64,000 nt of DNA from Thermococcus thermotolerans. GTDB lineage: Archaea; Methanobacteriota_B; Thermococci; Thermococcales; Thermococcaceae. Positions 24,731 through 35,706 of this stretch are shown here, piece by piece. The stretch is from positions 1,426,001 to 1,490,000 of the forward strand of contig NZ_CP102602.1 in the NCBI RefSeq assembly GCF_024707485.1, given 5' to 3'. The translations under genes and the position numbers were made by a program. The stretch's first letter is position 1; each line of letters begins with the position of its first letter. The notes beneath the pieces are model-generated. The model searched no databases. It had not been told where the DNA came from and saw nothing but the letters and a program-made list of their open reading frames with translations.

Positions 24731-25474
24731 ATGCCCGCATGGAAGGACGGAAAGCTGGGACTGCCTGTAAAAGAGGCAGTGAAGCTGTTTCCGGAGCTGA
24801 AGGACTACCTCGACGAGCGCGGAAGGCTTGACTTCTCGAACAGGGAAGCGAGGATACTCTACAACAGGGCGATAGCGGAGGCAATTTTCGGCCTCGATAT
24901 AGAGTACCACCCGCGCGGACTGGTGACCACCCCCGTCTCGCGCTATATCTTCCTGAAGACCTTTCTCCGCGGCGGCGAGAGGGTTCTTGAGATAGGAACC
25001 GGGCACACCGCGATGATGGCCCTCATGGCGGCCAAGCTCTTCGAGTGCGACGTTACCGCGACGGAGATCGACGAGGAGTTCTTCACCCACGCAAAGGCCA
25101 ACATAGGGAGAAACGGAGCGAAGATCAGGCTAATCAAGAGCTGCGGTGGAATAATCCAAGGAGTGATCCCGGAAGGGGAAAAGTTCGACGTAATCTTCTC
25201 CGCTCCGCCCTACTACGAGACTCCGACGAAAGGCGTTCTGACGGAGAGGGAAGGCGTTGGAGGTGGGAAGTACGGTGAGGCATTCTCGGTGAGGCTCATC
25301 GAGGAGGCGATGGAATACTTGAAGCCCGGTGGAAAGGTAGCTCTCTTTCTTCCGGACAAAAAGCCGCTGATAAATGCCATAAGGGAAAAGGGAGAAGAGC
25401 TGGGCTACTCCGTGAGGGACGTGAGGTTCCGGGTCGGAACGCGGTGGAGGTACAGCCTGATACTCAGGCTGTAA
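24731..25474 (+). CDS. SAM-dependent methyltransferase, RlmF/METTL16-like
   Basis: 247 residues from ATG 24731 (MPAWKDGKLGLPVKEAV). A 70-residue N-terminal helical part (DERGRLDFSNREARILYNRAIAEA) precedes a Rossmann methyltransferase: VLEIGTGHTAMMAL (motif I, about 97-110), ATEIDEEFF, and SAPPYYE (motif IV, about 159-165). LDFSNREARILYNRA and the PPYY motif resemble enzymes that make N6-methyladenine in structured RNA (RlmF, METTL16), so an RNA target is likely but the residue modified is unproven. A pyrimidine-rich promoter and short or absent leader are suggested by the 37-bp gap after the peptidase. Confidence 0.75.
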   Translation: MPAWKDGKLGLPVKEAVKLFPELKDYLDERGRLDFSNREARILYNRAIAEAIFGLDIEYHPRGLVTTPVSRYIFLKTFLRGGERVLEIGTGHTAMMALMAAKLFECDVTATEIDEEFFTHAKANIGRNGAKIRLIKSCGGIIQGVIPEGEKFDVIFSAPPYYETPTKGVLTEREGVGGGKYGEAFSVRLIEEAMEYLKPGGKVALFLPDKKPLINAIREKGEELGYSVRDVRFRVGTRWRYSLILRL

Positions 25475-25526
25475 TGGTCCCTAACGACCATAACCTCCAC
25501 GATTTTAGTCGTTTGAGCGACCAAAT

Positions 25527-25639
25527 AAAAAAAGGGTTTCGGTCGGGGGAGCGACCGGTTGAGGGACTCGGACCGTGGGCGTCTCAGCATCCACGCCGGC
25601 TCAGAGGAGGTGCTTTATCCTCATCGTCCCCTGTACCCC
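25527..25639 (-). ncRNA. Candidate structured small RNA with promoter and oligo-T end
   Basis: On the minus strand a TATA-like AAATTTAAA (25655-25663) lies about 25 bp before a GC-rich block in otherwise AT-rich DNA, and the block ends in a T7 run (25527-25533), the usual archaeal terminator. The RNA can fold: an outer stem 25626-25630 with 25563-25567 encloses two hairpins (25618-25622/25604-25608 and 25591-25595/25574-25578), and a 6-bp hairpin (25557-25552/25545-25540) precedes the T run. The second enclosed loop contains GATG and CTGA, which look like a kink-turn or L7Ae-binding loop. It is not coding on either strand. The class is unknown; a guide RNA of H/ACA or unusual C/D type is the best guess. 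Confidence 0.5.
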
Positions 25640-25671
25640 AATGTATGAAAGTGGAAATTTAAACCTAAAGG

Positions 25672-25679
25672 TTATATAT
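25672..25679 (+). promoter_or_regulatory. TATA box of the DDWF membrane protein gene
   Basis: TTATATAT, with an A/G-rich BRE-like AAAGG before it, lies about 28 bp upstream of the TTAGGGGTGA ribosome site of the following gene. It faces away from the TATA box of the candidate RNA at 25655-25663, so the two genes are divergently transcribed from adjacent promoters. Confidence 0.5.
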
Positions 25680-25711
25680 GTAAATACCCTTTTTATTTAG
25701 GGGTGACTATA

Positions 25712-26134
25712 TTGTCCCTAAAGTGGAAAATTGTGGGTCACGTATCATTATTCTATGTAGCATTTGTGGGTTTTATTTATATATATTCAAAAATCGTCTC
25801 AGCATTCCCCGATCTCTACCAAGGGGTCTCCCCTAAGGATATACTGTTTTTTGGCTTTCTGTTTGCGTTAGCGGTGAACATTTTGGTATTTGCTGGTTAT
25901 AGACGATCACCTTCCAGAACTAACCGTAAATCGGGGCCTTATCGGTATGAAGAGGAAGTGATCGAAGTATACGAACCTGAAGATGACTGGTTCAAGCCAC
26001 TTGATGATTTCGATCACCAAGTTAGAAAGCTTAATCAGGACTTCTCAAAGTTTGCTAAGGCGGATTTAACTAAGCGCCGGAGAAGAAAGAAGGATGACGA
26101 CTGGTTTGCCTCGATGAGAGATTTCAAGTTCTAA
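25712..26134 (+). CDS. Small two-TM protein with duplicated DDWF motif
   Basis: About 140 residues from a TTG at 25712 spaced correctly from AGGGGTGA; a GTG at 25703 is in frame but overlaps that site. Two membrane spans (VGHVSLFYVAFVGFIYIYSKIV and DILFFGFLFALAVNILVFAGY) are followed by about 85 cytoplasmic residues. This tail contains a strongly acidic stretch, DDWFKPLDDF, a probable helix, a basic patch KRRRRKK and, at the very C-terminus, a second copy DDWFASMRDF. The sequence is AT-rich compared with flanking genes and I recognise no family. The next gene encodes another membrane protein with an Mrr nuclease domain, behind its own promoter. Confidence 0.7.
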   Translation: MSLKWKIVGHVSLFYVAFVGFIYIYSKIVSAFPDLYQGVSPKDILFFGFLFALAVNILVFAGYRRSPSRTNRKSGPYRYEEEVIEVYEPEDDWFKPLDDFDHQVRKLNQDFSKFAKADLTKRRRRKKDDDWFASMRDFKF

Positions 26135-26271
26135 TTTCTTTGTTATTAAAATGTGTCCTCACAACAGTGCCTCTTCCGTAAATAATCCCCACACTCGCTC
26201 TCCTATCTGTTCAGAGGGTTTACAGATATCTTGCAGTAAAGTGTCCACAACTTGGTAACAACAGCAAAATT

Positions 26272-26281
26272 GATATATATA
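26272..26281 (+). promoter_or_regulatory. TATA box of the membrane-bound Mrr-like gene
   Basis: GATATATATA at 26272-26281 lies about 50 bp before the likely GTG start. The 195-bp gap before the gene also holds a perfect inverted repeat, TATCTGT (26204-26210) and ACAGATA (26222-26228), and near the expected transcription start TTCTTTT (26291-26297) with AAAAGAA (26301-26307), which could form a hairpin in the leader. Confidence 0.5.
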
Positions 26282-26329
26282 CTTTCTCCGTTCTTTTCTT
26301 AAAAGAAAGAAGAAGACCCGGTGGTTAGG

Positions 26330-27220
26330 GTGTCAAATTCCCGGAAGGGTTATGAGTTTGAGAATGAGATTGCACGGATTCTGAAGGATTTAGGGTATGA
26401 GGTGACCCAAACTCCCTTCAGCGGAGATTACGGAGTCGATATTATAGCTGAAAAGTATGGAAAAAGAATTGCTATTCAAGTAAAGAACCAAAATAGGCCT
26501 GTAGGCGTAAGAGCTGTTCAAGAAGTTTTCGCCGGGAAAGAATACTACAGGTGTGATGAGGCGTGGGTAGTTTCACGGAGTGGATTCACAGAGAGAGCCG
26601 AAGAAATGGCTCAAAAACTAGGCATAGAATTAGTGCATTATGTGGAACTACAAAAAAGAGCAAACATACTCCGACAAACTGAGCATTTTCCAACTATCAC
26701 TCAAAGAGAAGATCCCATGACAGAAGATGAGGCTGTGTCAATTCTAATATTGCTAGCTGGCACGATCTTTTCAGTCATTTGGTATATCTTACATTTCTAT
26801 GTCAAACTTTCTGGTGACATTTCTGTAAAGGTGGGAAGTGCTACTTCTATATTTATCCTTATCATTTATATTGGTTCCATTCTTGTTATATTTACCCCAC
26901 CTCTCGTCTTTTTCACCGAACTCCGTGAAAAAGTCAAGGGTCGGTATTATTCCCTCAGCGGCCTTATCCTTAGCAGCTATTTTCTAATGGTAGCTATCAG
27001 AGAACTTCTGAATTATGACTCGATAGTAACTTCGCCCTACGGCCTATTGGGAGTATTGACTAGCGCTGCAACTTTGTTATGGTTAAGCATCGTCGCATAT
27101 GAGGAGTGGCTGAGACATGAGAGAAGGAACTCTCTAAGCTCCGCCCATACTATGCGTAGCATTATCCTCACCTGCTATGCCATTGTTCTAGCTATCTCGA
27201 TGTATTTCTACCCGTTCTAG
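26330..27220 (+). CDS. Mrr-type restriction endonuclease domain fused to five membrane spans
   Basis: About 296 residues from GTG 26330, 6 nt after GGTGG; GTG 26321 is an alternative. Residues 1-112 form a PD-(D/E)xK nuclease of the Mrr type: EFENEIARILKDLGYEV (helix with Glu), SGDYGVDIIA (catalytic Asp) and IAIQVKNQ (the QxK variant usual in Mrr), then AVQEVFAGKEYY and AWVVSRSGFTERA. After a short linker come five hydrophobic spans to the C-terminus (ending MYFYPF). Mrr-like nucleases normally cut modified or foreign DNA; membrane tethering is unusual and would suit DNA entering the cell. The gene is AT-rich and lies in an accessory island, so a defence role is plausible but inferred. Confidence 0.8.
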   Translation: MSNSRKGYEFENEIARILKDLGYEVTQTPFSGDYGVDIIAEKYGKRIAIQVKNQNRPVGVRAVQEVFAGKEYYRCDEAWVVSRSGFTERAEEMAQKLGIELVHYVELQKRANILRQTEHFPTITQREDPMTEDEAVSILILLAGTIFSVIWYILHFYVKLSGDISVKVGSATSIFILIIYIGSILVIFTPPLVFFTELREKVKGRYYSLSGLILSSYFLMVAIRELLNYDSIVTSPYGLLGVLTSAATLLWLSIVAYEEWLRHERRNSLSSAHTMRSIILTCYAIVLAISMYFYPF

Positions 27221-27281
27221 TGCTAGGAGAATAGTAGAAAAAATTTTGTATAATAGACTCTCCATACTCGCCAGACGAGGC

Positions 27282-28472
27282 TCATTTCATATCCTCAACG
27301 TAGAGGAACAGCGCCTTGAGGTACTCCGTGTCCTTCGAGGCCATCAGTATCGGGTGGTCTGGTGCCTGAGTTCTGTACGGCTCAAGGAGCTTAAGGAACT
27401 TGCCGGCCTTGGCTGCCGCTGCAATAACCATGTCCTTGAAGGCCTGCATATCAACGTGCTGGGAGCAGGAGGCCGTAACGAGGATTCCACCCTCCTTCAC
27501 CAGCTGTAAGCCGGCGTAGTTCACGTTGAAGTAAGCGCGAAGCCCCCTCTTGAGGTCCTTCTCGTGCTGGACGAAGGCAGGTGGATCGAGGATAACGATG
27601 TCAAACTTCTCGCCCCTCTTTATCATCTCCTCCATGACAGGGAAGGCCGAGCCAACGACGTACTTCATCCTGTCCTCCACGCCGTTGAGCTTGGCGTTCT
27701 CCTTTACCATGTTGATGGCCCAGGGGGACTTGTCTACAGCCACCACCTCGTCGGCTCCAGCGACGGCGGCGTGTATCGCAAAGCCGCCGGTGTATGTGAA
27801 AACATCGAGAACCCTCATTCCCGGCTTGACGTACTTCTCAAGGGCTATTCTGTTCTCCCTCTGGTCGAGGAAGAAGCCCGTTTTCTGTCCACGCATATCA
27901 ACGATGAACTTGGCTTTGCCTTCCTCGATTACCGTCCGGTACTTCTCCTTGCCGAGGAGAACGCGCTCGATTTCGGGCAGACCCTCCCTTCTCCTTGAGC
28001 GCCCGGTGTTTTTCTCGAAGACCGTCTCGATTTCCGGCTCGGCCTCCATTATTGCCTCCGCAAGGTCGAGCTTGAACTTTTCCATCCCTATGCTCGAAAT
28101 CTGGATCGAGGCTATCTCGTTGAAGCGGTCAACTATAAGGCCAGGCAGATAATCCGCCTCGCCGTATACCATGCGGTAGGCCCCCTCGTAGCCGAGAACC
28201 TTCTTGCGGTACTCATTGGCCTTCCTGATCCTCTCACGGAAGAGCTCCTTGTTTATCTCCGTATCGCGGTCCTTAGTTACGAGCCTGATCATGATGTTTG
28301 AGTTGGGATTGACAAAGCCCTTTCCGAGGAACTTGCCGCCCCGTGTGTAAACCTCAACCACATCCCCCGGCTCAAACTCGCCCTCCGTTCTCACGACACC
28401 CTTTTTGAAGACTATCATCGCGCCCTTTCCTATGGCTCTCGCGGCCTGAGCGTCAACGATTACCCTCGCCAT
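27282..28472 (-). CDS. Class I rRNA methyltransferase with PUA domain (RlmI-like)
   Basis: A 396-residue protein after a strong GGTGGTGAGAG site. An N-terminal PUA domain (ARVIVDAQAARAIGKGAMIVFKKGVVR ... GDVVEVYTRGGKFLGKG) binds RNA; a central EEHEE-like region follows, then a Rossmann methyltransferase with VLDVFTYTGGFAIHAA (motif I), VAVDKSP and IVILDPPAFV (motif IV), and the Cys of TASCSQHV in motif VI expected for m5C chemistry. It matches the archaeal PH1915-type family, related to E. coli RlmI, which methylates 23S rRNA C5 of cytosine. The exact target here is unknown. Confidence 0.88.
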   Translation of the reverse strand: MARVIVDAQAARAIGKGAMIVFKKGVVRTEGEFEPGDVVEVYTRGGKFLGKGFVNPNSNIMIRLVTKDRDTEINKELFRERIRKANEYRKKVLGYEGAYRMVYGEADYLPGLIVDRFNEIASIQISSIGMEKFKLDLAEAIMEAEPEIETVFEKNTGRSRRREGLPEIERVLLGKEKYRTVIEEGKAKFIVDMRGQKTGFFLDQRENRIALEKYVKPGMRVLDVFTYTGGFAIHAAVAGADEVVAVDKSPWAINMVKENAKLNGVEDRMKYVVGSAFPVMEEMIKRGEKFDIVILDPPAFVQHEKDLKRGLRAYFNVNYAGLQLVKEGGILVTASCSQHVDMQAFKDMVIAAAAKAGKFLKLLEPYRTQAPDHPILMASKDTEYLKALFLYVEDMK

Positions 28473-34553: not shown

Positions 34554-35398
34554 ACGGAAGGCTGAAAATCACAACTTCAATGCTCATCTGGGGGAGCGTT
34601 GGAATATTCGCCCGCTTCTCAAACCTGTCCGGGCTAGGGGTTGCTTTCTTCAGGGTGTCGCTTGGGGCCATCCTGCTCCTGTCCCTCTTGGCGGGCAACA
34701 AAGGATGGGTCTTATCGCTTCCTTCCATAGTTAGAACCAAATGGAAGCCCCTCGTAGCCCTGGGAGTTTCCCTGGCCCTGAACTGGGTATTCCTCTTCAC
34801 GGCGTTCAGCTACACCACCATAGCAAACGCGGTTCTCGTCTATTACATGGCCCCGATAATAGCGACCCTCATCTCGTGGAGGTTCCTTGGGGAGAGGATG
34901 ACCCTGAAAAGGTGGCTCCTGATAGGGACCGCCTTTGCCGGGCTCATCCTGATAATGAGCGGGCAGGATGTCGACCTTGGAAACAGGGACTTCGTTGGAA
35001 TTCTGCTGGCGGCGATAGCGGCCTTCTTCTATTCGCTGATTCCAAATCTCGGACGGTTTCTGCGCGATGTGGACGGAAAGACCCTGACCTTCCTCCAGCT
35101 CGCCGTAGCGTCGGTTGTTTTGGCCCCTTTTATTGCCGCATCGGGCGTTGGAGAGCCCGCCTGGTGGGCGGTTTTTATCCTCGTGAGCGTGCACACGGTA
35201 CTGGCGCTCTTTCTGTACATGGACGGGCTGAAAGAGGTTGAGGTCAACGAGGCGGCTCTGCTGAGCTACCTCGACCCCATGAGCGCCGTGATCTATGCGT
35301 TTCTGATATTCGGGGAGGTTCCAGGGGTTAGAACCGCACTCGGAGGGGCCCTGATACTTCTGGCGTCCCTGCTGGATATTAAGGCGAGGGGGTCGTAG
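34550..35398 (+). CDS. EamA-family (DMT) transporter
   Basis: 282 residues from GTG 34550, overlapping the priS stop by 4 bp. Ten hydrophobic spans arranged as two five-span EamA repeats: the first contains MLIWGSVGIFARF and VLVYYMAPIIATLISWRFLGE, the second LLSYLDPMSAVIYAFLIFGE, the usual repeated P-x-x-A/T glycine-rich signature. The substrate of drug/metabolite transporters of this type cannot be predicted. The last five codons lie within DNA that is also the 3' strand of the RNase P RNA P1 helix on the opposite strand. Confidence 0.88.
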   Translation: MNGRLKITTSMLIWGSVGIFARFSNLSGLGVAFFRVSLGAILLLSLLAGNKGWVLSLPSIVRTKWKPLVALGVSLALNWVFLFTAFSYTTIANAVLVYYMAPIIATLISWRFLGERMTLKRWLLIGTAFAGLILIMSGQDVDLGNRDFVGILLAAIAAFFYSLIPNLGRFLRDVDGKTLTFLQLAVASVVLAPFIAASGVGEPAWWAVFILVSVHTVLALFLYMDGLKEVEVNEAALLSYLDPMSAVIYAFLIFGEVPGVRTALGGALILLASLLDIKARGS

Positions 35399-35706
35399 CC
35401 CGCCTTCTGTGTCAAGGAGGCATTCGACTGAGCGGCCTACCACGGGGCTCCCACCGGGAACTCATCGCCCCTTCCTCGGCCTTGCACCCCGCGGGACGGC
35501 CGTTTCACCGCCCCCCGACGGGTCGTCTGCGGGTTAGCTCGGGCACCGTCGCCGGGCCCTTCGCCGCTTTCATCCCCATATCCGCCGGGACGTGTCGTTT
35601 CTGCGCCGTTGCCCTCCCTCTCGGGAGGTGCCTTGCGGCACCGCGGCCCCGGTGCGGTGGGCGGAACTTCCTCGGGAGCACCCCGAGGGCCCCCGACCCC
35701 CTCGCC
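35383..35706 (-). ncRNA. rnpB: RNase P RNA
   Basis: About 324 nt of very GC-rich, non-coding sequence with the archaeal type-A RNase P RNA signatures on the minus strand: CR-I GAGGAAGTTCCGCCC (35673-35659), the GGTGAAACGGCC element (35509-35498) and CR-V ACAGAAGGCGGGCTAC (35410-35395), which pairs with CR-I to form P4. The ends are set by a perfect 12-bp P1 helix, 35706-35695 (GGCGAGGGGGTC) with 35394-35383. A TATA box (TTTTTTAT, 35737-35730) is placed 25 bp before the 5' end. The RNA is the catalytic part of RNase P; its protein Pop5 is at 4.3 kb. Exact termini are inferred from P1. Confidence 0.95.

Follow-up and report, generated by a model that had tools for sequence, protein, structure and literature searches.

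A predicted membrane-tethered Mrr-type nuclease in an AT-rich insert at a gene-turnover hotspot beside the sR43 RNA gene of Thermococcus thermotolerans

Classical Mrr type IV restriction enzymes carry an N-terminal winged-helix domain ahead of the nuclease domain, and in ZorD of type I Zorya systems the last ~110 residues form an Mrr-like nuclease. Among Zorya II proteins, the nuclease ZorE is reported to be recruited to the membrane in phage defence (PMC11890865). Here, we describe a gene (positions 26330-27220, + strand, GTG start) whose 296-residue product joins an Mrr-type catalytic domain (Mrr_cat, residues 1-110) to about five predicted transmembrane spans (residues 136-296). It lies in a stretch of 64,000 nucleotides, referred to below as the window, from the 2.07-Mb genome of Thermococcus thermotolerans. 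This architecture, proposed in an earlier note on the same DNA, held up well: the PF04471 profile matches residues 9-112 of the 299-aa frame at E=4e-24 (85.4 bits against a cut-off of 21), and five hydrophobic spans are found at a lenient cut-off and four at a strict one. The charges of the loops suggest a topology in which the nuclease domain sits inside the cell.

The protein differs from each of the described systems. In contrast to classical Mrr enzymes, it has the nuclease at its N-terminus and lacks the winged-helix domain, for which there was no Pfam match at E<=1. Its best matches among defence models are PDC-S02 and the Mrr-type C-terminus of ZorD, the latter being the best match in PADLOC, but in ZorD the match is confined to positions 949-1059 of 1071, and in PDC-S02 likewise to the C-terminal part of the model (192-302 of 334) rather than extending over its full length. 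Moreover, no Pfam match to a helicase, such as the SWI2/SNF2 helicase of ZorD, was found in the window nuclease, and ZorA and ZorB were not found beside it, its sole neighbour on the insert being an orphan gene, here called DDWF, that matches no PADLOC or Pfam model. ZorE is a nuclease of a different type from Mrr, and the likeness lies in its reported recruitment to the membrane during infection.

Tethering of this catalytic domain is seen in other proteins too. Two relatives in the Thermococcaceae (loci L002 in genome G016 and L003 in G081) have an N-terminal nuclease domain that is 51-55% identical to that of the window protein and is followed by a membrane anchor. Unlike the window nuclease, however, they have one transmembrane helix and a large outside domain, which in L003 shows a weak Laminin_G_3 match, and they occupy a different locus. 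Both genes (L002:862-1860, - strand; L003:1501-2820, + strand) adjoin the 3' end of a gene whose product ends in RFPENEKRAT or KFPEEEKRAT. Further afield, the domain is ~37-41% identical to plasmid and phage proteins, several of them anchored by transmembrane helices. Proteins of Priestia/Bacillus plasmids and of Roseburia phage Jekyll have in common with the window protein the catalytic domain, the D..QxK residues, and membrane anchoring, but place one or two transmembrane helices before the domain, whereas in the window protein the domain is N-terminal and the ~five helices are C-terminal. Searched separately, the transmembrane half had no detectable relative and no PHROG match, and the full-length protein was present in one genome only.

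An alignment of eight relatives, drawn from archaea, plasmids, and a phage, shows no variation at residues E11, D33, G35, D37, Q50, and K52. The earlier note had made its reading depend on the nuclease residues being kept in homologues, and D33, D37, Q50, and K52 are among those that are. Judging from the sequence, the nuclease is probably catalytically active. A single-sequence structural model was weak (mean pLDDT 61), and a fold search ranked Cdn1/Can2-type proteins, Hjc, and MspJI at the top; the best matches were mostly PD-(D/E)xK enzymes, and none was significant at E<=0.001. Related PD-(D/E)xK nucleases serve in repair too, a fact that counts against a defence reading. In this respect, the window protein also shows a weak similarity to Hjc in profile searches, below the cut-offs of both Pfam (19.9 bits vs 21.1, E=7e-4) and NCBIfam (16 bits vs 70). 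This similarity, together with the natural competence of some Thermococcus strains, would fit a nuclease that, through Hjc-like processing, serves the uptake or repair of DNA at the membrane rather than defence. However, the match to Mrr_cat is far better than that to Hjc, and confinement of the full-length protein to a single genome is unlike core uptake or repair genes. We therefore consider an uptake or repair role highly improbable.

The nuclease gene is part of an AT-rich insert of ~1.64 kb (25640-27281) that lies between the stop codon of an RlmI-like gene and the gene for the small RNA sR43. The GC content of the insert is 40.5%, compared with 54% for the window, and the GC3 of its genes is 0.41-0.44, compared with 0.74-0.75 in the flanking genes. 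On either side are two convergent RNA-methyltransferase genes, whose stop codons are separated by 1.8 kb: a PF05971-like gene (24731-25474, + strand), which is also found downstream in relatives, and the RlmI-like gene (27282-28472, - strand), identified by profile matches to PUA and Methyltrans_SAM. Among 61 genomes of the genus, almost all have an RlmI-like orthologue, mostly at 84-99% identity, with some copies cut by contig ends. An island of foreign composition between two conserved methyltransferase genes had been proposed at 25475-27281. Its composition and its place between these genes are borne out by these data, but its left edge is not, since the compositional island begins near 25640 and the segment from 25475 to 25639 is backbone containing sR43. 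The insert is missing in the close relatives G038 and G071, where sR43 lies <=30 nt from the RlmI stop codon. No known defence genes adjoin the gene pair, whose immediate neighbours are the two methyltransferase genes, both of the housekeeping type. Elsewhere in the window, an archaeal RNase P RNA (RF00373) was detected at 35384-35705 on the - strand with 183.6 bits.

The RNA next to the two genes had previously been considered a candidate member of a joint module. It is instead the catalogued C/D-box sRNA sR43 (Rfam RF01128; 25566-25629, - strand), which matches the covariance model over positions 1-56 of 56 with 67.7 bits against a gathering cut-off of 45. In 26 of 40 relatives that were re-fetched, on which all counts for this hotspot are based, sR43 lies <=30 nt from the RlmI-like stop codon in the same orientation. 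Because of this conserved place, the gene belongs to the backbone adjoining the insert. It encodes a housekeeping guide RNA, conserved among relatives and older than the insert, and we therefore rejected a place for it within the insert or a module. A microRNA-family match at 25477-25555 (E=0.59, 19.8 bits against a cut-off of 99) was also dismissed as chance. While RF01128 in most relatives sits beside the RlmI-like gene, the insert now separates the two in the window, where sR43 has a TATA-like element of its own ahead of it. This candidate promoter, TTTAAATT (25656-25663, - strand), lies ~30 nt upstream of the 5' end of sR43 and may now drive its expression.

Comparison of the 40 relatives identifies the RlmI/sR43 spot as a hotspot of gene turnover. 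Apart from the 26 in which sR43 stays near RlmI, six have another insert on the same side, two have an element inside sR43, five have sR43 inverted, and one shows none. The six other inserts are diverse: three (L054, L059, and L070) encode a ParE/RelE-type toxin with a likely antitoxin, an assignment tested against Pfam in L054; L071 carries a large orphan protein that is found in pieces in L067; and L082 has a short insert. In other relatives, inserted DNA separates sR43 from the second methyltransferase gene, in several cases with an AAA_14/DUF4143 ATPase. In L059, a methyltransferase frame continues into sR43. The five inversions (L048, L051, L065, L074, and L086) place sR43 just after the RlmI stop codon, and what appear by eye to be housekeeping-type genes (lipoate ligase-like, 2-oxoacid dehydrogenase-like subunits) come next in L048 and L074.

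In two of the relatives, G028 (L055 at the left end, L095 at the right) and G018 (L072 and L097), an element is integrated exactly inside sR43, which is split after GAGAAAGCAC and followed by a tyrosine-recombinase gene, and an intact sR43 is found at the far end, ~17 and 22 kb away, respectively. The duplicated 21-mers agree at 17 and 18 positions, a similarity that none of 200,000 shuffles equalled, and in G018 the far end reads AAGAAAGCAC where the left end has GAGAAAGCAC. The 5' half of sR43 is restored in both genomes, where a new C box contributed by the element end keeps the sR43 gene intact. The integrase family that targets sR43 was found only in G028 and G018 of 94 family genomes, at sR43 in both. 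By this sequence evidence, the sR43 gene acts as attB for 17-22-kb tyrosine-recombinase elements in two relatives. Archaeal attB sites of tyrosine recombinases have been reviewed (PMC8371274), and the splitting of a gene with restoration of an intact copy by the element, as in G028 and G018, agrees with them. Where that review turns to targets other than tRNA genes, the sites it names are intergenic or protein-coding, whereas the target in G028 and G018 is a C/D-box sRNA gene. A literature search turned up no description of sR43 as attB; subscription journals were mostly outside its reach, and this result is accordingly provisional.

In contrast to such elements, the insert of the window carries no comparable att sites. 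A search of the insert for an integrase, a duplicated att site, or terminal repeats found none of these, the att core is present as a single copy within the window, and no relative of the sR43-targeting integrases was found in this genome. These observations bear on the possibility that the insert is neutral or selfish cargo: a mobile element that had used the sR43 site would have decayed, leaving behind two ORFan-like membrane genes that are unrelated to each other and serve no selected function in the host. Such an origin would agree with the gene turnover at the hotspot, with the use of sR43 as attB in two relatives, and with the higher frequency of small proteins and membrane proteins in archaeal dark-matter islands (PMC4158269). 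On the other hand, the catalytic residues of the nuclease are intact, promoters and Shine-Dalgarno-like sites are still recognizable, and an integrase and a second att copy are missing from the insert. On balance, cargo without a host function appears unlikely, although it deserves serious consideration.

The other gene of the insert, DDWF (25712-26134, + strand), encodes an orphan membrane protein of 140 aa. As the earlier note had it, this protein has two transmembrane spans (residues 7-25 and 44-62) and a tail with two copies of DDWFxxxxDF, namely DDWFKPLDDF at residue 91 and DDWFASMRDF at residue 129, which flank the basic run KRRRRKK. The significance of the repeat is modest: when the tail was shuffled 2000 times, 29 shuffles attained its 6 identities in 10 positions. 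The charged tail is predicted to face the cytoplasm. Chance would produce an open frame as long as that of this smaller gene with P ~0.003, and a single-sequence model of fair quality (mean pLDDT 77) consists of a transmembrane hairpin and a long tail helix, with no significant match in a fold search. No relatives of DDWF were found in 94 Thermococcaceae genomes, viral contigs, phages, or plasmids, nor in 85,000 species genomes searched with patterns suited to close relatives only; Zorya models did not match it either. Weak matches at L014-L017 and L088 were discarded as chance because they are short or fall in intergenic or wrong-frame DNA, and two further DDWF-encoding words in the genome lie inside unrelated large proteins. 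Both genes of the insert have a likely start codon preceded by a Shine-Dalgarno-like run (TTG at 25712 for DDWF, GTG at 26330 for the nuclease), and each has its own TATA-like element on the + strand, as previously claimed, at 25672-25679 and 26272-26281, respectively; both words occur only rarely in the window.

It is possible that these two proteins form a two-component membrane module in which DDWF senses or recruits and the tethered nuclease cuts. The genes are adjacent and in the same direction on one 1.64-kb insert, both products are predicted membrane proteins with their business ends in the cytoplasm, and neither was present in other genomes searched. Nevertheless, the separate TATA boxes and the ~200 bp between the genes do not make an obvious operon, the pair was found at no second locus in the genomes searched, and no DDWF-like gene lies beside the nuclease cousins at L002 and L003. 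Since DDWF and the transmembrane half of the nuclease have no detectable relatives, the lack of co-occurrence is itself uninformative. We regard such a module as distinctly unlikely, and its more specific form, a membrane-bound restriction module of DDWF and the five-TM Mrr protein carried as cargo at a hotspot centred on the sR43 attB, as slightly less likely still. Accordingly, of the defence or DNA-uptake module suggested earlier, a plausible membrane nuclease at a turnover hotspot survives, while we saw no sign of DNA uptake, and a joint module of DDWF, nuclease, and RNA is unsupported.

The explanation we favour, to which we give an even chance, is that the insert is lineage-specific cargo, probably recent, at the RlmI/sR43 hotspot, and that its second gene encodes a membrane-anchored Mrr nuclease that restricts incoming DNA. 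The absence of the insert from close relatives, an Mrr_cat score far above the cut-off, and the recurrence of Mrr relatives with transmembrane anchors all argue for this explanation. In such a mechanism, the ~five helices would keep an Mrr-family nuclease with a D...QxK active site at the membrane's inner face, where the tethered domain would meet and cut incoming DNA that is foreign or modified, in a restriction-like defence. As the protein lacks a winged-helix domain, any choice of target would depend on the nuclease domain, on its location, or on a partner. That partner might be DDWF, to which only its adjacency points, but the gene may also be unrelated cargo.

The role of sR43 as a hotspot and attB is more notable than the module proposed for this locus. 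With a C/D-box sRNA gene as an integration site, the RNA genes used for integration would not be limited to those for tRNA, and the sR43 site offers a place to search for new Thermococcus cargo genes. Mrr nucleases tethered to the membrane are found repeatedly, on differing anchors, in archaea, plasmids, and phages, a pattern that fits the cutting of DNA at its point of entry, and the window protein would be a five-TM archaeal version of these enzymes.
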